This document shows, piece after piece, positions 14,557 through 25,783 of a DNA stretch of 42,611 nt. Positions within the stretch are counted from its first letter, which is position 1, and the number at the start of each line of letters is the position of its first letter. A model generated the notes under the pieces. It did not search any database, had not been told where the DNA came from, and worked only from the letters and a program-made list of their open reading frames with translations. The translations under genes and the position numbers were made by a program. Location of the stretch: the NCBI GenBank assembly GCA_902634455.1, contig CACPKQ010000010.1, forward strand, positions 1-42,611, given 5' to 3'. Origin of the DNA: an uncultured Pelagibacteraceae bacterium. GTDB taxonomy: Bacteria; Pseudomonadota; Alphaproteobacteria; Pelagibacterales; Pelagibacteraceae.

Positions 14557-14605
14557 ATTGTATTTTCTATATTAAGTGGTACTTTGCAATTTATCTAGTT
14601 ATCAT
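14557..14605. promoter_or_regulatory. Divergent ruvX/gatC intergenic region
   Basis: These 49 bp separate two divergent operons (ruvX leftward, gatC rightward). A TATATT at about 14568-14573 is a possible -10, but no matching -35 is clear on either strand. Promoters are expected here by context; I cannot fix their positions. Confidence 0.3.
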
Positions 14606-14893
14606 ATGACAATAGATCTTAAAACAATAAAGCATATATCTAAATTATCTAGGATTTCTGTAGATGATGAAAAAGCTAAGAAATTAGAAGCCGATCTTAA
14701 CTCAATTTTTTTATTTATTGAAAAATTAAATGAATTAGAAACTAAGAATGTGGAACCTTTAACTTCAATTGCAGAAACCACTCTTCAACTTAGGAAAGAT
14801 GAAATAAAAACTCATAATATAAGAGAACAAGTTTTAAAAAATTCACCTGATAAAAATAAAGATTTTTTTGTTGTTCCAAAGGTAGTTGAATAA
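14606..14893 (+). CDS. gatC: Asp/Glu-tRNA amidotransferase subunit C
   Basis: Small subunit that holds GatA and GatB together in the enzyme converting Asp-tRNA(Asn) and Glu-tRNA(Gln) to the amidated forms. The ATG at 14606 gives a 95-aa protein with the usual beginning (IDLKTIKHISKLSRISV) and the conserved PLTSIAE and LRKDE segments. A GTG 30 nt upstream is in frame, but the sequence before the ATG is not family-like. It overlaps gatA by one base. Confidence 0.94.
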   Translation: MTIDLKTIKHISKLSRISVDDEKAKKLEADLNSIFLFIEKLNELETKNVEPLTSIAETTLQLRKDEIKTHNIREQVLKNSPDKNKDFFVVPKVVE

Positions 14894-16347
14894 TGACTAA
14901 TATAATTGATTTAACACTTGTTGAACTAGTAAATAAAATTAAAAAAAAAGAAATTTCCTCTAAAGAAATAACAAAAGCTTATGTTGATAGATGTAAAAAA
15001 TCAAAAAAGTTAAATACATTTATTACAGATGATTTTGATAATGCTTTAAAAAAAGCTGATAAGTTTGATAAAAAACCTGATTTCAATAAAAAATTACCTG
15101 GTATCCCAATAGCAGTAAAAGATCTTTTTTGTACTAAAGATTTAAAAACAACTGCGGGAAGTAAAATATTAAGTAATTTTATTCCGTCTTATGAATCAAC
15201 TGTTACCCAAAATCTATGGAATGAAGGAAGCATTCTTTTAGGAAAGCTCAACTGTGATGAATTTGCCATGGGTTCTTCAAATGAAACTAGTTTTTTTGGA
15301 AATGTTCAAAGTCCAATAGGCAAAGGCTTGGTACCTGGTGGATCATCCGGTGGATCTGCTTCAGCTCTTTCTGCCAAATTAACTCCTGTTACTGTAGGAA
15401 CTGATACTGGTGGTTCAATTCGTCAACCAGCTTCATTTACCGGTACAGTTGGACTCAAACCAACTTATGGTAGCTGCTCAAGATACGGTATTGTTGCTTT
15501 TGCATCTTCATTAGACCAAGCTGGTCCTATGACTAGAAATGTAAAAGATTGTGCCTTATTATTTGAAGTAATAAGTTCATATGATAATAAAGACTCCACT
15601 TCAGTAAATTTCAAAAGAGCAAACTATTCAAATAAATTAAATAAATCAATTAAAGGAAAAAAAATTGGTATACCGAAAGAGTATAGGGCTGAGGGGATGT
15701 CAAAAGAAATCGATGAACTCTGGCAAAGAGGAATAAATATAGTTAAAGAATCTGGAGCGGAGATTCTTGATATTTCATTACCAAATACAAAATATGCATT
15801 ACCAGCTTATTATATAGTCGCTCCAGCAGAAGCATCTTCAAATTTAGCAAGATACGATGGTGTAAAATATGGTTTTAGATCACCAGGAGAAAATTTAATA
15901 GATATGTATGAGAAAACTAGATCTGAGGGATTTGGTGATGAAGTTAAAAGAAGAATTATGATTGGAACATATGTTCTTTCATCAGGTTATTACGATGCTT
16001 ATTATTTAAAAGCTCAAAAAGTAAGACAGTTAATTAAAAATGACTTTGATGAAGTTTACAAGAAAGTTGATGCTATATTAACACCTTCGACTCCAACATC
16101 AGCTTTTACAATCGGTGAAAAAACAAATGATCCTGTTTCTATGTATTTAAATGATATATTTACAGTACCTATTAATTTAGCAGGACTTCCAGCAATATCT
16201 ATACCCGCAGGATTAGATTCAAAAGGATATCCATTAGGTTTACAAATAATTGGAAAAGCCTTTGATGAACAGAATATATTTAATATTGCATATTCTATGG
16301 AAGAAAAAATTAATTTTAAAAATGAAATAAAAAGTTGGTGGATGTAA
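14893..16347 (+). CDS. gatA: Asp/Glu-tRNA amidotransferase subunit A
   Basis: Glutaminase subunit that releases ammonia for GatB. Amidase-signature enzyme with the Ser-cisSer-Lys triad in view: the lysine in [10 protein letters not shown] (about residue 76) and the two serines in [11 protein letters not shown] and [12 protein letters not shown]. The Gly-rich signature is intact, and the C-terminal PAISIPAG block is present. Length 484 aa is typical. TAATG overlaps on both sides link it tightly to gatC and gatB. Confidence 0.97.
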
Positions 16348-17813
16348 TGTCAAAAAATCAATCAGAGTATTTAATAAAAAGAAATAATAATGAATATGAG
16401 GTGGTTATTGGTTTAGAGGTACATGCTCAGGTATTGTCAGAATCAAAACTTTTCTCTAGTTCTTCAACAAAATTTGGGGCAGAGCCTAATACACAGGTAA
16501 GTCTTGTCGATGCTGCTTTTCCAGGAATGCTACCAGTGATAAATGAATTTTGCATAAAACAAGCAGTAAAAACTGGAATTGGATTGAAAGCTAAAATAAA
16601 TAAAAAATCAATTTTTGATAGAAAAAATTATTTTTATGCTGACTTGCCACAAGGATATCAAATTTCTCAATATAAAAATCCTATAGTAGGTGAAGGTTCT
16701 GTAGTTTTAGATTTGCCATCAGGTGAAAAAAAAATTGGTATTGAAAGGCTTCATTTAGAGCAAGATGCGGGAAAAAGTATTCACGATATAGATCCACAAA
16801 ATACTTTAGTTGATCTAAATAGATCAGGTGTCGCATTAATGGAAATAGTTAGTAAACCAGATTTGAGATCTTTAGAAGAAGTAAATGCTTATGTAAAAAA
16901 ACTAAGATCAATTATGAGATACTTGGGCACTTGTGACGGAAATATGCAAGAGGGATCTTTAAGAGCAGATGTTAATGTTTCAGTAAGAAAAAAAGGTCAA
17001 AAAGAACTTGGCACAAGATGTGAAATTAAAAATGTAAATTCAATTAAATTTATGCAAATGGCTATTGAGTATGAAGCAAATAGACAAGTTGATGTCATAG
17101 AGGAGGGTGGCTCAATTGATCAAGAAACTAGACTATTTGATACAAAAAAAAATCAAACAAGATCAATGAGATCCAAAGAAGATGCTCATGATTATAGATA
17201 TTTTCCTGATCCAGATTTATTGCCTTTAGAAATTAGTGATAAATTTATTGATGAATTAAAAAAAAATATTCCTGAACTTCCCGACGAAAAGAAAAAAAGA
17301 TTTATAGAAAAATTTAAGCTTTCAGCATATGAAGCTAATATACTAGTATCAGACAATGAAACTTCAAAATATTTTGAAGAAGTTATTAAAGAATCTGATG
17401 TTAAAATTTCAACAAACTGGATTACTGGTGAATTATTTGCTTTACTGAATGAAAAAAATTTGGAAATTTCTGAAAGCCCAATTAGCGCAAAAAATTTATC
17501 TAAATTGATTAATTTGATTAAAGATGGAACAATTTCAGGAAAAATTGCTAAATCTGTCTTTGAAATTATGGCAGATGGAAATAAAGATCCAAAAAAAATA
17601 ATTGAAGAAAAAGGTCTTAAACAACAAAGCGATCCCAAGGAATTAGAAAAATTAATTGATAAAGTAATTAATGATAATCAAGACAAAGTTAAAGAATATA
17701 AATCTGGAAAAGAAAAATTGTTTGGTTTTTTTGTTGGCCAAACAATGAAAATTTCAGGTGGAAAAGCAAATCCAAAATTAGTGAATGAAATTTTAAAAAA
17801 AAAACTAACATAA
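16347..17813 (+). CDS. gatB: Asp/Glu-tRNA amidotransferase subunit B
   Basis: Phosphorylates and amidates the aspartyl or glutamyl group on t[16 protein letters not shown] starts the cradle domain, [14 protein letters not shown] and [10 protein letters not shown] follow, and [13 protein letters not shown] is the classic signature. A helical and YqeY-like tail completes 488 aa. I use the ATG at 16347, which shares one base with the gatA stop, over an in-frame TTG four codons earlier that lies inside gatA. Whether the complex serves Asn, Gln or both depends on aminoacyl-tRNA synthetases outside the window. Confidence 0.96.
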
Positions 17814-17815
17814 TT

Positions 17816-18472
17816 ATGGGATCAAACCTTGCCATCAATGACAAAATTGAGGAATATATTAATGAACATTCATTAAAGTTAAACCCTATTCAAAAAGAAA
17901 TAATTACATACAATGATACCCTGGGTGAGATTAAAAGAATGCAAATTTCAATATCTCAATGCCATTTTTTACACCTAATTATAAAAGTTTCTAAAATTAA
18001 AAGAATTTTAGAAATTGGTACGTTTACGGGTTTAAGTGCAATATCAATGTCACTAGCATTGCCAGAAAATGGTACTTTAATTGCATTAGATAAAAATGAA
18101 AAAACCTCTAAAAAAGCAGAAGATTATTTTAAAAAAGCAAATCAAGAAAATAAAATTAAATTAATTGTAAAACCAGCTTTAGAAAGTTTAAAAAAATTAA
18201 AAGAAGATAATGAAAAATTTGATCTTGTTTTTATTGATGCTGATAAAGAAAATTACAAAAATTATTATGATTCATCTTTAGACTTAATAAATATAAATGG
18301 ACTTATAATAATTGATAACGTTTTGTGGCATGGTGAAGTAATAAATGAAAAAAAAAAAGACAAACTTACAGAAAATATAAGAAAATTTAATTCTTATGTT
18401 AATTCGGATAAAAGAACTGAAAATTTTATCATTCCCGTTGGAGATGGTTTTACTGTATGTAGAAAGTTATAA
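17816..18472 (+). CDS. CCoAOMT-family O-methyltransferase, TrmR-like candidate
   Basis: SAM-dependent, metal-dependent O-methyltransferase of the caffeoyl-CoA OMT family (218 aa). Motif I is EIGTFTGLS (66-74). Metal ligands are likely Asp141 in FIDADKENY and Asp167-Asn168 in IIDNVLWHG, and the C-terminus carries IIPVGDG. Alone it would be an orphan, but its stop shares a base with the start of trhO, whose product makes 5-hydroxyuridine in tRNA. Bacillus subtilis TrmR (YrrM), of the same fold, methylates that base to 5-methoxyuridine. I infer the same role here; a small-molecule OMT is the alternative. Confidence 0.72.
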   Translation: MGSNLAINDKIEEYINEHSLKLNPIQKEIITYNDTLGEIKRMQISISQCHFLHLIIKVSKIKRILEIGTFTGLSAISMSLALPENGTLIALDKNEKTSKKAEDYFKKANQENKIKLIVKPALESLKKLKEDNEKFDLVFIDADKENYKNYYDSSLDLININGLIIIDNVLWHGEVINEKKKDKLTENIRKFNSYVNSDKRTENFIIPVGDGFTVCRKL

Positions 18473-19371
18473 TGTTTTATATTTCAGGATTTTATAAGTT
18501 TAAAAAAATTGAAAATACCAAGATAAAAAAAAATCATTTACAAAAATATTTTTTAGCATATTCAATAAGAGGAACGTTAATTATCTCAAAAGAAGGTATA
18601 AATGGAACTTTATCTTCAAAGAAAAAAAATCTTAATTCAGCTATATTAAAGATCAAAAAAATATTTAATTTTAACAATTTTGATAGTCAAAACTTATCTA
18701 AAAATAAATTTCAACCTTTTCATAGAACAAAAGTTAAAATTAAAAAAGAAGTTGTTCCTATGGGAATTAAAATTTTAACAAGAAAATTGGAAAATCATAT
18801 AGAGCCATCTAAATGGAATAAACTTATCGAGAACAAAAACACTCTATTAATAGATGCAAGAAAACCATTCGAATACAATGTCGGCACTTTTAAAAAATCT
18901 GTTAACCCTAATGTTAATAATTTCAGAGATTTTCCTAAATATTTAAAAAAATTAGATAAAAAGAAAAATATTGCAATGTTTTGTACGGGTGGAATTAGAT
19001 GTGAAAAAGCTTCTGTTTATTTGAAAAAAAAAGGTTTTAACAATGTTTATCAACTTAAAGGTGGAATTATCAATTATTTAAAAAAAACTAAAAAAAATAA
19101 TAGTTTATGGAAAGGTGAATGTTACGTTTTTGATAACAGGGTTTCGATAAAACATGGATTATTACCTGGTAGTTTTTCCATGTGTAGTGGCTGTAGAAAA
19201 CCAATATCAAATAAAGACAAAAAATCTAAAAAATATGAAGAAGGAGTTTCATGTCCAAATTGTCACGATAGCTTAACAATTTTTCAAAAAGAAAGATTTA
19301 GAATGCGTCAAAAACAAATAAATCTTGCAAAAAAACATGGAAAAAAACATATTTTTCAAAAAGAATTTTAA
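18472..19371 (+). CDS. trhO: tRNA uridine(34) hydroxylase (rhodanese-like)
   Basis: Oxygen-dependent hydroxylase making ho5U at wobble position 34 (YceA/TrhO family). An N-terminal acylphosphatase-like domain with IISKEGINGTLS (about 37-48) precedes a rhodanese domain with LLIDARKPFEYNVGTF and the active cysteine in CTGGIRCEKA (Cys171). A C-terminal cysteine cluster (MCSGCRKPIS, CPNCHD) is also present. Length 299 aa is typical. It overlaps the O-methyltransferase by one base and is followed by the MATE gene after 2 nt, so it sits in a mostly tRNA-directed operon. Confidence 0.93.
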   Translation: MFYISGFYKFKKIENTKIKKNHLQKYFLAYSIRGTLIISKEGINGTLSSKKKNLNSAILKIKKIFNFNNFDSQNLSKNKFQPFHRTKVKIKKEVVPMGIKILTRKLENHIEPSKWNKLIENKNTLLIDARKPFEYNVGTFKKSVNPNVNNFRDFPKYLKKLDKKKNIAMFCTGGIRCEKASVYLKKKGFNNVYQLKGGIINYLKKTKKNNSLWKGECYVFDNRVSIKHGLLPGSFSMCSGCRKPISNKDKKSKKYEEGVSCPNCHDSLTIFQKERFRMRQKQINLAKKHGKKHIFQKEF

Positions 19372-19373
19372 AA

Positions 19374-20735
19374 ATGAACTTATTAAAAGATAATGTTCCA
19401 AAACTAGTTAGAAAACTTGCTTTGCCTGCGATGGTAGGTACACTTTTCCAAACACTTTATAATGTTGTAGATACTTTTTTCGCTGGAAAAATATCGCCCG
19501 AAGCTTTATCTGCTTTAAGTAAATCTTTTCCTATTTACTTTATAATTATCGCTACCTCTATTGGTGTTACAGTAGCCGGAACATCATTAATTGGTAATAG
19601 CATAGGTGAAAAAAATAAGAGTAAAGCTATTAATTATTTTACGCATATTATTTATTTTGGAATTATAATTTCTATACTAATTACATTTATTGGATTAACT
19701 TTTTCTGAAAAAGTATTTACTTTAATGGGTTCGACTAAAGAAGTTACTTTTTTGGGTCTTCAATATACTAATGTTATTTATTCAGGATCTATAATTTTTA
19801 TTTTAGTTGTTGCTTTAAATTCACTTTTACATGCCGAGGGTGATACGAAAACTTATAGAAATGTTTTAATTTTATCATTCCTTCTAAATATTGTTTTAAA
19901 TCCGATATTAATTTTTGGTTTTCTATTTGTACCCGCTCTAGGAGTGAAGGGTATAGGTGTTGCTACTATAATTGCCCAAAGTGTATCTTTAGTAATAATA
20001 ATATACAAGGTTTATAAAAATAGTATTTTTAAAGAAATTACCAAAGTTTATTTGAAACCAAAATTTTTCTTTTTCAAAAACATTTTTTTTCAATCGATGC
20101 CTATATCTATATCAATTTGCGGTTATGCATTAGCAGCAGCAATTATTTTTACTTATGTTGGTGAATCAGGAGAATATGCTGTTGCTGGTTATGGAGCAGG
20201 TACAAGAATTGAGCAAGTAGTGCTGCTTCCAATTTTAGGCATCAATACAGCAATTATCTCAATAATATCTCAAAATTTTGGCGCGAGAAATTTTGATAGA
20301 ATAAAAGAAACTTATTTTACAGCAATAAAATATGCTTTTATTATTATGATAACATCTGGAATAATTGTTTTTATTTTAGCAGGAATTATTACCAGTATCT
20401 TTTCTAGTGATCCCGAGGTAATTGAATATGGAAAAAGATATCTAAAAATATCAGCCTTTGTTTTGCCTGCTTATCCTGTATTTTTTCTTTCTAATGGTTT
20501 TTTTATGGCTTTAAAAAAATCAGAAAATGCAATGATTTCTAATTTTTTTAGGAACGTGCTTAATCCAATTGTAGTGTTTTACGTAGCAAAATACATTAGT
20601 GCCAGTTTTGAGACTTTTTTTTGGATATGGGTTGGTATTAATTGGTTTTTCTCGATATCGTATTTTTTAATTGTAGTTTATTATTTTAAAACAAGATTAG
20701 GTAAATCTAGCGCTATCGTTCAACCATCTCCATAA
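19374..20735 (+). CDS. MATE-family efflux transporter
   Basis: Cation-coupled exporter of the inner membrane, 453 aa with about 12 hydrophobic helices in two MatE halves. The first half has LALPAMVGTLFQTLYNVVDT and the second QSMPISISICGYALAAAI. The substrate cannot be inferred. It is the last gene of the gat operon, 2 nt after trhO. Its last 39 bp lie antisense to the end of soxG; the final hydrophilic residues look like non-conserved read-through to the first available stop. Confidence 0.9.
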   Translation: MNLLKDNVPKLVRKLALPAMVGTLFQTLYNVVDTFFAGKISPEALSALSKSFPIYFIIIATSIGVTVAGTSLIGNSIGEKNKSKAINYFTHIIYFGIIISILITFIGLTFSEKVFTLMGSTKEVTFLGLQYTNVIYSGSIIFILVVALNSLLHAEGDTKTYRNVLILSFLLNIVLNPILIFGFLFVPALGVKGIGVATIIAQSVSLVIIIYKVYKNSIFKEITKVYLKPKFFFFKNIFFQSMPISISICGYALAAAIIFTYVGESGEYAVAGYGAGTRIEQVVLLPILGINTAIISIISQNFGARNFDRIKETYFTAIKYAFIIMITSGIIVFILAGIITSIFSSDPEVIEYGKRYLKISAFVLPAYPVFFLSNGFFMALKKSENAMISNFFRNVLNPIVVFYVAKYISASFETFFWIWVGINWFFSISYFLIVVYYFKTRLGKSSAIVQPSP

Positions 20736-21257
20736 ATGTTCGCAAAAGGATCTTCTTACAAATATATTTAAATCATTAATATTTTTATTATGTATTATTA
20801 CGTCAATATGATTCAATAAGGTTTGAGTAACTGCACCTTTTGAATTTTTAAAATTATTAAAATTAAAAGGACAACCGGAAGATAGTAATTCAAAAACCTT
20901 TGTACCTTTTAAATTAATCATTACCCAATGATCAGAAACGTCTGTGACTGAACCTAACTGTACTTTAGATATTTCATCAAAAAGTTTTTCTAGTAAAGCA
21001 TTTCTTTCATTTAGATAAATTTTATCATTTGAATAAACTAACCATTCATCTGGACTTAACCAAAGAATATTTAATTTCTCGTTTCCTGAAGAAGTATTAG
21101 GATCAGAAGGTGGTATTATTGATAATTCTTTACCTATTTTAGTTATAAAATCTCTATTTTTGCCTCTTAAATTTATTTTAGTAATAGGTTCAATTTCTGA
21201 GATTTTTAATTCAGAATAATTTTTAGCTTCATTAATAGGAGGATTATAATTAAGCAT
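20697..21257 (-). CDS. soxG: Sarcosine oxidase gamma subunit
   Basis: Smallest of the two folate-binding-like chains of heterotetrameric sarcosine oxidase (186 aa). It has the family pattern LSPDEWLVY near residue 70, VTDVSDHWVMINLKG near 104, LSSGCPFN near 126, and a C-terminal RRSFCEHLWRWL. It overlaps soxA by 8 bp. The conserved C-terminal end is encoded opposite the tail of the MATE gene. Last gene of soxBDAG. Confidence 0.9.
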   Translation of the reverse strand: MLNYNPPINEAKNYSELKISEIEPITKINLRGKNRDFITKIGKELSIIPPSDPNTSSGNEKLNILWLSPDEWLVYSNDKIYLNERNALLEKLFDEISKVQLGSVTDVSDHWVMINLKGTKVFELLSSGCPFNFNNFKNSKGAVTQTLLNHIDVIIHNKNINDLNIFVRRSFCEHLWRWLNDSARFT

Positions 21258-24255
21258 TTAACCTCTTATTTTCTTTATCTAAAAATACTGTGTCTGTTAT
21301 AGTTACATTAATTGTTTTATTTTTCATAGGAACGAACATTTTTTGCCCTTTCAATTTTTTACCATTTTTCACTACAGCCAGTGCAATTGATTTATTTAAA
21401 TTTGGACTGAAATAACTAGAGGTAACATGTCCAAGCATTTCTATTGGTTTTTTATTTGTTTTAGCAACAATTTGCGCACCCTCTTCTAAGATTTCATTTG
21501 GATTTTCAGTTAATAGTCCCACCAACTGTTTTCTATCTTCTCTAATTGTATCGCTTCTATATAATGATCTTTTACCAATAAAATCATATTTCTTTTTACT
21601 GATTATCCAATCCATTTGTAAGTCTACAGGTGTCATTGTGCCGTCTGTGTCTTGACCAGCGATTATAAATCCTTTTTCTGCTCTAAGTAAGTGCATCGTT
21701 TCAGTTCCATAGGGAGTGATATTAAATTCTTTTCCCGCTTCAAAGCATTTTTCCCAAACAGATTTAGCATATGATGATTGAATATTAATTTCATAACTAT
21801 GTTCACCAGTAAAACTAATACGCATTACCCTGCATTTTATATTATCAATCAATGCACTTTTAAACGACATGTGTGGAAATTTTTTATCAGACAAATCTAG
21901 GTCAGGAATTAGTTTTGAAAGAATTTTTTTTGAATTAGGTCCGCATATACTTACAGTACCATAGTGGTCAGTTACTGAAGTTAAATATACGTCTAATTCA
22001 GGCCATTCTGTTTGCAAGTAATCTTCTAATTTTGAAAGAACATTAGCAGCACCACCGGTTGTTGTAGTCATTAAGTAATGGTTTTCTGATAATCTAGTTG
22101 TAACTCCATCATCGTAAACCATTCCATCCTCATTCAGCATTAATCCATATCTGCATTTTCCTATTTCTAATTTTGACCAAGCATTTGTATAAACTCTATT
22201 TAAAAACTCAGATGCGTCACTTCCTTGTATATCTATTTTTCCAAGCGTAGATGCATCTAAGATACCGGCGCTATCTCTGGCAGCCTTACTTTCCCTTTGA
22301 ACAGCATCATACATATTTTCATTGTCTTTTGGATAATACCAGGCTCTCTTCCACTGTCCGACATTTTCAAATTCAGCTTTATTTTCTACATGCCAATCAT
22401 GTATTGGTGTTTTTCTTGTAATATCGAAAAATTTACCAACGTTTCTTCCTACAATCGCTCCAAATGTTAACGGAGTGTAAGGAGGTCTAAATGTAGTAGT
22501 TCCCAATTCACCCATTTTGACACCGGCTGTTTCAGCTATAATTCCAAGTGCATGCATGTTGGATAACTTCCCTTGATCAGTAGCCATACCGGTTGTTGTG
22601 TATCTTTTTACATGTTCAATTGATTTAAAACCTTCCCTTAAAGCTAATTTTACATCATTTGCTGTAGAATCATTCTGAAAATCTAAAAAAGGTTTAGTTT
22701 TTCCCAAAGGTTTATCAGATGGAAGTAGCCAAATATTTTTTTTATCAATTTCTTTTGAAGAAATAATTTCTAATTTTTCATAATCATTATTATTAACTTT
22801 TAAAAATTTATTAGTTAAATTAACTGAATTTTTTATTACATCATCGAGTTCAAAATCACCATTACAAGATCCAATACTTATTTGATCCAAATCAGATTTA
22901 TCTGGTAAAAAAACATTGTCTTCATCTCTAAATTTAAGTTTACCACCTGATTGAGTAAACAAATGTACTCTTGGTGTCCAACCTCCCGAAATACCCAAAC
23001 AGTCACATTGTTCTTTTGTTTTTGATTCTACAACAGCAGTACCATCGTCAGACAATTTCATAATTTCAATAGAATTAATTTTTTTATAACCATTTGTATT
23101 AACAACCGTAGATTTCCAGTGAATTTTAATGCCTAATTTTTCAGCTTGTGTAACTATTAATGAATTAGTTTTATCCCTTATATCAATTAGCGAATTAACT
23201 TTTACACCACTATTACTTAAAGAGATGGCTGTTTCATAAGCTGAGTCATTATTTGTAAATAAAGATATTTTTTGTCCACATTTAACTCCGTAGTAGTCTA
23301 TGTATTTTTTGATAGAAGATGAAAGAATAATGCCCGGTCTGTCATTATTGTTAAAAATTAATGGTCTCTCTATCGCTCCTGTAGCTATAATTACTTTTTT
23401 TGCCCTAATTTTCCAAAGTCTTTGACGAATTTTATTTTTTTTTTCATTAAAATCTAAATGATCTGTTAAATTTTCTCTAGCTAAAAGATAATTATAACTA
23501 TGATAAGCAGCTAATGATGTTCTTGTCTTTATATTTAAATTTTTAAACAAATTTAAAGTGCTAATTTCTTTTTTTAACCATTCATTTGAATAAGAATTAT
23601 TAATTTTAAAACATTCATTTTGCTGGAAAAGTGTATTCCCACCTAAGATATTTTTATCGTCTATTAATACAGTATTAAAATTATTCTTAGCTGCTGTTTT
23701 CGCAGCCATTATTCCAGATATACCTCCTCCAACAACCAAAACATCGCAGTGTAAATATCTATGATCATAAATATCTTTATCTGGTTCAGTAGGTGATTTA
23801 CCTAGACCCGCAGATTTTCTAATAAAGTATTCGTATAATTTCCAAAAATTAGCAGGCCACATGAATGTTTTATAATAGAAAGCTGCCGGTAAAAGAGGAG
23901 AGAAAAAATTATTTACCGCACCAATATCAAATTTAACACTTGGCCAACAGTTCTGACTTGAGGCTTCCAAACCTTCGTATAATTCTATTTCAGTTGCTCT
24001 TGTATTTGGTTCTGTCATTGAAGGATCATTTCCAAGTTGTACGATTGCATTAGGTTCTTCAGAACCACATGTCATTATTCCTCTTGGTCGATGATATTTA
24101 AAGCTTCTTCCAACAAGGTGGATATTATTTGCTAATAAAGCTGATGCTAAAGTATCACCCTTAAATCCATATAAGGTTTTACCATCAAATTTAAAAGATA
24201 TTCTAGTTGTTTGATCAATAAACTTATTGTTTGTTATTCTTAAATTTTTGCTCAT
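21250..24255 (-). CDS. soxA: Sarcosine oxidase alpha subunit
   Basis: Large subunit (1001 aa) that binds NAD+ and tetrahydrofolate. The N-terminal 2Fe-2S-ferredoxin-like region contains SFKYHRPRGIMTCG (about 51-64). A Rossmann domain follows with VVGGGISGIMAA (about 174-185), and the C-terminal half (about 600-990) is a GcvT-like aminomethyltransferase domain with DASTLGKIDIQG and PYGTETMHLLRAEKG. The complex oxidatively demethylates sarcosine to glycine and 5,10-methylene-THF. It overlaps soxD by one base (TAATG). Dimethylglycine-type substrates cannot be excluded from sequence. Confidence 0.95.
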   Translation of the reverse strand: MSKNLRITNNKFIDQTTRISFKFDGKTLYGFKGDTLASALLANNIHLVGRSFKYHRPRGIMTCGSEEPNAIVQLGNDPSMTEPNTRATEIELYEGLEASSQNCWPSVKFDIGAVNNFFSPLLPAAFYYKTFMWPANFWKLYEYFIRKSAGLGKSPTEPDKDIYDHRYLHCDVLVVGGGISGIMAAKTAAKNNFNTVLIDDKNILGGNTLFQQNECFKINNSYSNEWLKKEISTLNLFKNLNIKTRTSLAAYHSYNYLLARENLTDHLDFNEKKNKIRQRLWKIRAKKVIIATGAIERPLIFNNNDRPGIILSSSIKKYIDYYGVKCGQKISLFTNNDSAYETAISLSNSGVKVNSLIDIRDKTNSLIVTQAEKLGIKIHWKSTVVNTNGYKKINSIEIMKLSDDGTAVVESKTKEQCDCLGISGGWTPRVHLFTQSGGKLKFRDEDNVFLPDKSDLDQISIGSCNGDFELDDVIKNSVNLTNKFLKVNNNDYEKLEIISSKEIDKKNIWLLPSDKPLGKTKPFLDFQNDSTANDVKLALREGFKSIEHVKRYTTTGMATDQGKLSNMHALGIIAETAGVKMGELGTTTFRPPYTPLTFGAIVGRNVGKFFDITRKTPIHDWHVENKAEFENVGQWKRAWYYPKDNENMYDAVQRESKAARDSAGILDASTLGKIDIQGSDASEFLNRVYTNAWSKLEIGKCRYGLMLNEDGMVYDDGVTTRLSENHYLMTTTTGGAANVLSKLEDYLQTEWPELDVYLTSVTDHYGTVSICGPNSKKILSKLIPDLDLSDKKFPHMSFKSALIDNIKCRVMRISFTGEHSYEINIQSSYAKSVWEKCFEAGKEFNITPYGTETMHLLRAEKGFIIAGQDTDGTMTPVDLQMDWIISKKKYDFIGKRSLYRSDTIREDRKQLVGLLTENPNEILEEGAQIVAKTNKKPIEMLGHVTSSYFSPNLNKSIALAVVKNGKKLKGQKMFVPMKNKTINVTITDTVFLDKENKRLNA

Positions 24256-24530
24256 TATTTTATTGGAGGTTTTTCGCCCATTTTATAAACAGCGTGAATT
24301 TTGTCATTTGATGTATCTCTAACCATATTAAACCATTTTCTACATCCATGAGCATGGTTCCATCTTTCAAATTGAACACCTTTAATATTTTTTCTCATAA
24401 ACAAATATTCTGCCCATTGATCATCACTTAATTCAGTAGGTTGTTTTGGTCTGATAATATGTGCTTCACCACCAGCAGAAAATTCGCTTTGATCTCTTTC
24501 ACCACAATAAGGACAATTGATTAAAAACAT
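24255..24530 (-). CDS. soxD: Sarcosine oxidase delta subunit
   Basis: Zinc-binding small subunit (91 aa). Cys6 and Cys9 (CPYC) with His59 and Cys63 (NHAHGC) form the expected Zn site, and the WAEYLFMRKN segment is family-typical. It starts inside the soxB stop codon (TGATG) and ends inside the soxA start, so all three are likely translated together. Confidence 0.94.
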   Translation of the reverse strand: MFLINCPYCGERDQSEFSAGGEAHIIRPKQPTELSDDQWAEYLFMRKNIKGVQFERWNHAHGCRKWFNMVRDTSNDKIHAVYKMGEKPPIK

Positions 24531-25783
24531 CAGTGTGCTACAGCAGCAGCTCCATGCTCATCAACAAGATCTCCGCTTACAAATCTATTTATATTAAAAT
24601 CAGCATTTAATTTATGAGGTTCATCATTAGCAATAGTATGTGCAAACAAATCACCCGAACCTGGTGTTGCTTTAAATCCTCCTGTACCCCAACCACAATT
24701 AAAATATAATCCTTCAATATGTGTTTTACTAATTATAGGACTAGCATCTGGGCAAATATCAACTATACCTCCCCATTGTCGTAGCATTTTCATTCTACTA
24801 AAAATAGGGTAGAGTTCTAATATTGCTTTTAAAGTACCTTCAACAACGTCATGACTTCCTCTTTGAGTATAAGAAACATAAGCATCAGTTCCAGCTCCTA
24901 TAACAAGCTCCCCTTTATCTGATTGACTTACATATGCGTGAACCGCATTGGACATAACCACAGTATCTATAATTGGTTTTACAGGTTCTGATACTAGAGC
25001 TTGTAAAGGTTTACTTTCAAGAGGTAATTTTAAATCAACCATATTAGCTATAACACTTGAATGACCAGCAGCAACCACTCCTATTTTTTTTGTTTTTATA
25101 AATCCTTTTGTTGTTTCTATACCTTCTACACCGTTTTCTTTTCTTTTAATTCCTTTTACTTCACAATTTTGAATTATATCAACACCCATTGCATCTGCGC
25201 CTCTTGCATAGCCCCATGCAACAGCATCGTGTCTAGCTGTACCTGCTCTTTTTTGCAAAGTTCCTCCTAAAACCGGATATCTAATATTAGGTGAAGTATT
25301 AATTATTGGACAGAATTTTTTTACTTCTTCAGTGTTTAACCATACAGCATCAATACCATTTAATCTATTTGCATGAGTTCTTCTTTTTAAATCTCTTACA
25401 TCTTGAAGATTATGAGCTAAGTTCATAACTCCTCTTTGACTGAACATGACATTATAATTTAATTCTTGAGATAATCCTTCCCAAATTTTTAGAGCGTGGT
25501 CATACAATCCTGCGCTAGCATCCCATAAATAGTTTGAACGAATTATAGTAGTATTTCTTCCTGTATTCCCCCCTCCAATCCAACCTTTTTCAACTACTGC
25601 AATATTTGTCATATTATGCTTTTTAGCTAAATAGAAGGCTGTGGCTAAACCATGACCTCCACCGCCAATAATAATTGCATCATATTCTTTTTTTGGTTCC
25701 GGATCCCTCCAGGCTCTTTGCCAATTTTCATGGTAACTAAAAGCATTTTTAATTAGAGAAAATATTGAATATTTGTTTTTCAT
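24530..25783 (-). CDS. soxB: Sarcosine oxidase beta subunit
   Basis: Flavoprotein subunit carrying the amine-oxidising site (417 aa). The FAD-binding [17 protein letters not shown] motif is at residues 40-56, preceded by the characteristic [18 protein letters not shown] lead. The [13 protein letters not shown] segment near 183-195 contains the histidine that in this family carries covalent FMN. GGWG-type binding appears as [15 protein letters not shown] near the C-terminus. First gene of soxBDAG. The promoter region upstream (25784-25852) holds a 14-bp palindrome. Confidence 0.95.

Follow-up and report, generated by a model that had tools for sequence, protein, structure and literature searches.

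Does the O-methyltransferase gene that overlaps trhO by one base in a SAR11 genome supply the second step of a wobble-uridine pathway, and is its product a TrmR? The locus lies in a window of 42,611 nucleotides (the whole stretch of DNA that was analyzed) from a draft SAR11 (Pelagibacteraceae) genome of 1,085,841 bases, 81% complete. In this window, gatC, gatA, gatB, the O-methyltransferase gene (OMT), trhO, and a MATE-family transporter gene follow each other in one direction, with intergenic gaps of a few bases at most (Table 1); the gatC frame is open from a GTG at 14576, with an ATG at 14606. An initial annotation had described a TrmR-like methyltransferase "fused by overlap" to TrhO right after gatCAB. 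The TAATG overlap and its position are confirmed, the OMT stop codon TAA (18470-18472) and the trhO start codon ATG (18472-18474) having base A18472 in common. The two genes are separate open reading frames, however, and "fused" was loose wording. The TrhO assignment is upheld by the NCBIfam equivalog NF001133 (268.8 bits against a cut-off of 170), and the OMT product belongs to PF01596 (Methyltransf_3, 196.8 bits against a cut-off of 22). On the - strand, positions 20697-25783 of the window hold a cluster of genes that read as the gamma, alpha, delta, and beta subunits of sarcosine oxidase and overlap one another by 8 bases or 1 base.

Table 1 Features of the OMT-trhO locus, in positions of the window.
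Feature	Position	Strand	Basis and remarks
gatC (Asp/Glu-tRNA amidotransferase subunit C)	14606..14893	+	ORF; identity from sequence reading and position; context only
gatA	14893..16347	+	ORF; tblastn relatives >150 aa in 72/80 Pelagibacteraceae loci
gatB	16347..17813	+	ORF from ATG; alternative TTG start 16335; 5' of OMT in 77/80 loci
OMT, PF01596 class I O-methyltransferase, CCoAOMT/SynOMT type, 218 aa	17816..18472	+	ORF, profile, motifs, tree, model
TAATG stop/start overlap, OMT/trhO	18470..18474	+	-1 exactly in 74/76 loci
trhO, O2-dependent tRNA U34 hydroxylase, 299 aa, loop CTGGIRC	18472..19371	+	ORF, profile, loop
MATE-family transporter, more variable 3' neighbor	19374..20735	+	TIGR00797, 237.8 bits

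The reading that we favor, with moderate confidence and on sequence-based grounds, is that OMT and trhO form a coupled pair leading from ho5U34 to mo5U34, with a methyltransferase from outside the TrmR branch. In Pelagibacteraceae, the two genes would be translationally coupled and their products would modify the tRNA wobble uridine. TrhO, with O2, would convert U34 into 5-hydroxyuridine (ho5U34) in tRNAs reading NYN family boxes, and OMT, as a metal- and SAM-dependent enzyme recruited from a CCoAOMT/SynOMT-like branch and not from the Bacillus TrmR branch, would add a methyl group at the 5-hydroxyl, yielding 5-methoxyuridine (mo5U34). Enzymes of this class bind vicinal oxygens through their metal, an arrangement that the 5-OH of ho5U beside C4=O would resemble, and the modification would allow every codon of a four-codon box to be read with a minimal set of tRNAs.

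A one-base overlap is in itself ordinary for the source genome, as five others lie near the pair (11827, 13116, 14893, 24255, and 24530), or six with the ATG start of gatB (16347). Its persistence across relatives is not ordinary. Among 80 Pelagibacteraceae loci, with the starts in relatives projected by tblastn, the distance between OMT and trhO is exactly -1 in 74 of the 76 measurable junctions, whereas the flanking junctions drift, from -4 to 44 between gatB and OMT (77 junctions) and from 1 to 23 between trhO and the MATE gene (76 junctions), a comparison in which overlaps are inherently harder to alter than gaps. Such an overlap may couple the translation of OMT and trhO.

The best 80 relatives of the window OMT are all labelled Pelagibacteraceae, Pelagibacter, or Pelagibacterales, with the exception of L265, labelled Rhodospirillaceae. 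In the 80 loci, trhO adjoins OMT in 76; at L259 and L265 the OMT locus stops at a contig end, and the linkage in Pelagibacteraceae is complete apart from one MAG (L266, discussed below) and one inverted single-cell contig (L244). In the latter assembly (L244:4001-6842), trhO and the MATE gene are inverted beside OMT, perhaps through an amplification chimera. The 3' neighbor is less fixed: in this set, trhO is followed by a MATE gene at all 76 of 76 loci, but in another set of 30 loci it was not found beside trhO in five, those of genera g3 and g4. OMT and TrhO diverge to a similar degree, with median identities to the window of 64.7% and 65.2%, respectively; those of gatB and the MATE transporter are 82.9% and 42.6%.

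The gatB gene is found 5' of OMT in 77 of the 80 loci, the remainder being two contig ends and one other neighbor, which suggests that part of the OMT-trhO linkage is simply old gene order. Indeed, gatB is linked to OMT about as tightly as trhO is (77 against 76 loci), as would be expected if OMT had no function in tRNA and instead methylated small molecules (catechol/caffeoyl type) or protein carboxyl groups, the gene order having been frozen at the base of Pelagibacteraceae. We consider this alternative unlikely, while giving it real weight. A frozen order fits poorly with a single-cell assembly (L284:3451-6943) in which OMT, trhO, and the MATE gene follow nuo-like and biotin-ligase (birA)-like genes, named by sequence reading, and not gatB. 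This one assembly suggests that linkage to gatCAB does not by itself keep the pair together, the block having either moved context as a unit or arisen as a single-cell chimera. The retention of OMT with a tRNA enzyme in streamlined genomes and the fixed -1 overlap also argue for a shared role.

We surveyed 147 genomes of the order Pelagibacterales, 94 from the window's own family (f1) and 53 from a second family (f2), many of the latter incomplete; the 80 loci overlap these genomes and are not independent samples. Listed TrhO matches were taken down to a partial one in G079 and PF01596 matches down to 3.8e-13, weaker ones (other rhodaneses, other methyltransferases) being left out, and adjacency was read from coordinates. 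Both genes are present in 89 of the 94 f1 genomes and are adjacent, with OMT upstream, in all 89, including G034, where OMT is split across two contigs. No trhO without OMT occurs in the 94 genomes, which again speaks against a methyltransferase with no tRNA role. As for the other five, a contig end truncates the OMT of G122, which lacks TrhO, and G092, G119, G137, and G145 have neither gene. We do not count these four as co-loss, because they also show no GatB (0/4 at 1e-20); the region is probably missing from their assemblies, and they were treated as missing data.

The f2 genomes comprise 31 with TrhO and some PF01596 protein, seven with TrhO only, 12 with a PF01596 protein only, and three with neither, and the two genes are adjacent in none of the 31. 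No OMT was seen directly 3' of gatB in the five f2 loci read, and no methyltransferase was recognized by sequence reading among the TrhO neighbors in 10 f2 loci. This second SAR11 family (L064-L074) has an unlinked COMT-like O-methyltransferase: the one protein searched resembles mammalian COMT (114.9 bits, against 38.4 to YrrM), and four f2 rows group with COMT in the tree. We rejected the f2 proteins as a substitute TrmR since those compared are COMT-like and none adjoins trhO.

In a sample of 192 alphaproteobacterial genomes of at least 90% completeness (the window's own excepted), TrhO is present in 68 and a strong OMT, defined at 1e-30, in 71. Once the three SAR11 genomes are set aside, both genes occur together in 17 of 189 genomes, with 23.4 expected (Fisher p 0.055), and by listed coordinates they are adjacent in none of the 17. 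The pairing proposed by the initial annotation is supported within Pelagibacteraceae but not for alphaproteobacteria at large. Among the 48 genomes with TrhO and no strong OMT, 47 were searched (G269, with a partial TrhO, was left out), and 42 of the 47 have no PF01596 protein at 1e-6. The remaining five hold seven PF01596 matches, which we rejected as TrmR because none carries the TrmR signature on sequence reading. In most sampled TrhO-bearing alphaproteobacteria, ho5U34 may thus be the end product, or a still unrecognized enzyme may act on it. Outside SAR11, the trhO gene adjoins a glutathione S-transferase-like gene in 13 of 30 loci by eye, three of them Pfam-checked (L076-L105, the best 30 of 68).

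These 42 genomes, and the f2 genomes with TrhO and no adjacent OMT, suggest that ho5U34 may be an end product, and raise the idea that it is also the final product in Pelagibacteraceae, with OMT acting elsewhere in the translation apparatus, on another RNA position or on a protein. It is consistent with this idea that f2 combines TrhO with only an unlinked COMT-like enzyme and that no sampled genome of the class has CmoB at 1e-30. Nevertheless, it would leave the binding of OMT to trhO in Pelagibacteraceae unexplained, and the chemistry of PF01596 enzymes fits ho5U directly, so that we regard it as improbable.

The loop FCTGGIRCEK is found in 75 of 76 TrhO relatives and FCTGGVRCEK in one; according to an excerpt of PMC6599085, CTGGIR is the active-site loop of TrhO, and the enzyme requires O2. 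In line with the initial annotation, neither CmoB nor TrhP turned up. CmoB (TIGR00452) is over the cut-off in none of the 147 genomes of the order, the best score being 62.4, and in none of the 192 class genomes at 1e-30, with E. coli as a positive control; the Peptidase_U32/TrhP family is absent at 1e-5 from the 14 Pelagibacterales genomes searched. Two proteins of the source genome match PF08003, the family containing CmoB, weakly (22.9 bits and 20; the former reaches 24.4 with its neighbors, just above the cut-off of 23.8, in one reading). Neither was accepted as CmoB: the first matches Methyltransf_23 better (68.6 bits), the second is a cyclopropane fatty acid synthase (CMAS, 304.5 bits), and both score 26, compared to 275 for CmoB. 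With no CmoB and no Peptidase_U32 protein found, TrhO is the only known route to ho5U34 that we found.

The tRNA set is small. The complete relative G026 has 32 tRNA genes, with a single Ala tRNA (UGC) and a single Pro tRNA (UGG); none of the six family boxes Ala, Pro, Val, Thr, Ser(UCN), and Leu(CUN) is served by a CNN anticodon. The source draft yielded 27 tRNAs and agrees with G026 as regards Ala and Pro. UNN tRNAs for NYN codons are described as known xo5U carriers (excerpt of PMC6599085), and we infer that ho5U34 is probably needed for decoding in this lineage.

To settle which METHYLTRANSFERASE, we used phmmer against the PDB, signature motifs, trees with an AU test, and a structural model. 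The evidence leads away from the initial description of the enzyme as TrmR-like. By phmmer, OMT scores 161 bits to 3r3h, 151 to 3tr6, 144 to SynOMT (3cbg), and 124 to SafC (5lhm), compared to 83 to 8k1f and 79 to YrrM (5zw3) on the TrmR side. Its motifs, FIDADKxNY and DNVLWHG, are those of CCoAOMT/SynOMT and not the FIDAAKxQYxxFF of TrmR. FID[AG]DK is present in 9/9 SAR11 rows, and FIDAAK in 6/6 TrmR rows, with small variations in the rest of the signature; across the 80 loci, FID[AG]D is found in 80 and DN.LW.G in 60. Residues D141, D143, K144, D167, and N168 are invariant in 12 aligned SAR11 copies, and the Asp, Asp, and Asn positions are presumably the metal ligands.

The structural model (pLDDT 92.6) is closest to 3tr6 (Z 32.9), SafC (5log, 32.6), and SynOMT (3cbg, 32.2), with lower values for TrmR (5zw3, Z 28.8; tRNA-bound 5zw4, Z 28.4 over 209 residues, rmsd 3.1); the first 32 of the 50 structural matches listed are not TrmR. 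As modeled, the fold is common to both types and appears nearest to the CCoAOMT type. A tree of 57 rows, comprising 30 OMTs drawn from the 71 class genomes that have one, nine SAR11 rows, and references including COMT, sets TrmR apart as one clade (98/94) and COMT as another (100/100), and groups the SAR11 rows with those of CCoAOMT type and of alphaproteobacteria (94/85). The TrmR rows L289 and L292 were accepted on an upstream mltG, L289 also on a downstream U32 gene.

Could OMT nonetheless be a true, diverged TrmR orthologue, a reading that overlaps ours in function? The two share Pfam family and fold (5zw3, Z 28.8), and an AU test does not reject a joint SAR11 and TrmR group (p 0.152). When COMT is removed together with three long rows and a short one, SAR11 and TrmR share a side of a branch of the unrooted tree (100/98), with SAR11 no longer a single group and the bootstrap unsettled; this grouping could also arise if TrmR behaves as a remote outgroup drawn toward AT-rich rows. 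In the same tree, however, the distance to the nearest Legionella row is 1.92, against 3.7-6.0 to TrmR rows. The signatures differ throughout, the COMT-containing tree separates the groups, and the neighbors are gatB and trhO rather than mltG and U32 genes. We therefore find it very improbable that OMT is a TrmR by descent: that it works like TrmR is plausible, that it is one is not supported.

The same motifs, PDB scores, and tree, by placing OMT with CCoAOMT/SynOMT-type enzymes, favor the small-molecule or protein methyltransferase introduced above. The known substrates of SynOMT/CCoAOMT-like bacterial enzymes are aromatic small molecules, and a relative from Legionella adelaidensis (42% identity) is encoded in a cluster for tyrosine catabolism, where its gene is flanked by hppD and a gene for an amino-acid dehydrogenase. 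A protein target also has a precedent, as the Anaplasma family 3 OMT (4oa5) methylates the surface protein Msp4, targeting glutamates (excerpt of PMC4636158). The enzyme thus groups with the small-molecule type and does not co-occur with trhO outside SAR11, both of which the initial annotation had named as arguments against its proposal, while the linkage inside Pelagibacteraceae holds.

Several other observations concern the enzyme itself. Charge is uninformative as a sign of RNA binding, with a pI of 8.3 for the window OMT and a median of 5.5 over nine SAR11 copies. A PADLOC match to mad2 (51 bits) was discarded as a generic methyltransferase-domain match, covering only positions 285-396 of the 492 of the model. 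Two OMT relatives occur on viral contigs, with no trhO recognized beside them, and no second PF01596 protein was found in the source genome (81% complete).

The result most against the mo5U-pair reading comes from L266, a SAR11 IIa.A MAG whose title gives ETNP 2013, 300 m, a depth that we take to be the anoxic core. Here an intact OMT is followed by a scar at L266:4658-4696, an ATG and 11 codons (MRKKHIFRKEFY), and then by the MATE gene, trhO having been excised; MRKKHIFRKEFY corresponds to the C-terminal end of TrhO in relatives (GKKHIFVKEFY in L273). IIa.A is particularly abundant in oxygen-deficient zones, of which the ETNP is one (excerpt of PMC12598773), and since TrhO needs O2, its loss there makes sense. 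The retention of OMT despite this deletion favors a methyltransferase unrelated to tRNA; it might reflect a recent loss of trhO, another source of ho5U, or another substrate. Between L266 and L264, the OMT dN/dS is ~0.1 (dN 0.137; dS 1.38, near saturation), a value that mostly reflects the time before the deletion and is similar to that of the trhO-bearing pair L264-L273 (dN 0.11, dS 0.95). L266 is a single MAG, possibly misassembled, and the finding refers to the locus only, so that trhO may lie elsewhere in the MAG.

We still favor the coupled ho5U34-to-mo5U34 pair. More tentatively, the ho5U34 methyltransferase of Pelagibacteraceae might have evolved independently of TrmR, through recruitment of a small-molecule-type OMT, and become locked to an O2-dependent hydroxylase; decoding would then depend on O2, and lineages of oxygen-deficient zones, such as that of the trhO-deleted IIa.A MAG, might have lost the modification. 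SAR11 bacteria rank among the ocean's most abundant cells, and the limited library consulted yielded nothing on the chemistry of their wobble uridine. If a second ho5U34 methyltransferase was recruited separately, a PF01596 match would not suffice to call a protein TrmR, and lists compiled by homology would need correction. As TrhO is the sole hydroxylation route found, a minimal tRNA set would decode in an O2-dependent manner, an idea that can be tested through the trhO scar in this MAG from an oxygen-deficient region. The literature already contains the mo5U pathway, trhO-trmR fusions, and a trmR call in Ehrlichia canis, an alphaproteobacterium (excerpt of PMC6599085); what is new is the coupling across SAR11, an OMT from a different branch, and the trhO scar.

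Among known systems, the nearest to the SAR11 OMT by sequence and fold are SynOMT (3cbg), the Legionella (3r3h) and Coxiella (3tr6) enzymes, and SafC (5lhm), but none of the SynOMT/CCoAOMT-like enzymes in our comparisons is coupled to a tRNA hydroxylase. TrmR (YrrM) of B. subtilis shares with it the PF01596 fold, SAM dependence, and an encoded U34 hydroxylase partner, and by analogy the conversion of ho5U34 to mo5U34 would be expected; the two differ in signature, DAAK.QY..FF in TrmR and DADK.NY..YY in SAR11. Their contexts also differ: yrrM is in one operon with trhP1/trhP2 (excerpt of PMC6599085), and the Acetoanaerobium TrmR (L289) is flanked by mltG (280 bits, cut-off 103) and by a U32 gene whose best match is TrhP (395.5 bits, below the cut-off of 534), whereas the SAR11 OMT is found with gatCAB and trhO. 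The window TrhO resembles E. coli TrhO (YceA) in exceeding the equivalog cut-off and carrying the CTGGIR loop, but the E. coli enzyme is paired with CmoA/CmoB for cmo5U, and CmoB was not found in SAR11. A parallel to the pairing itself is offered by the yceA-trmR (trhO-trmR) fusions of Phytophthora and Phaeodactylum (excerpt of PMC6599085), where hydroxylase and methyltransferase are likewise joined, but as a single polypeptide and in eukaryotes.
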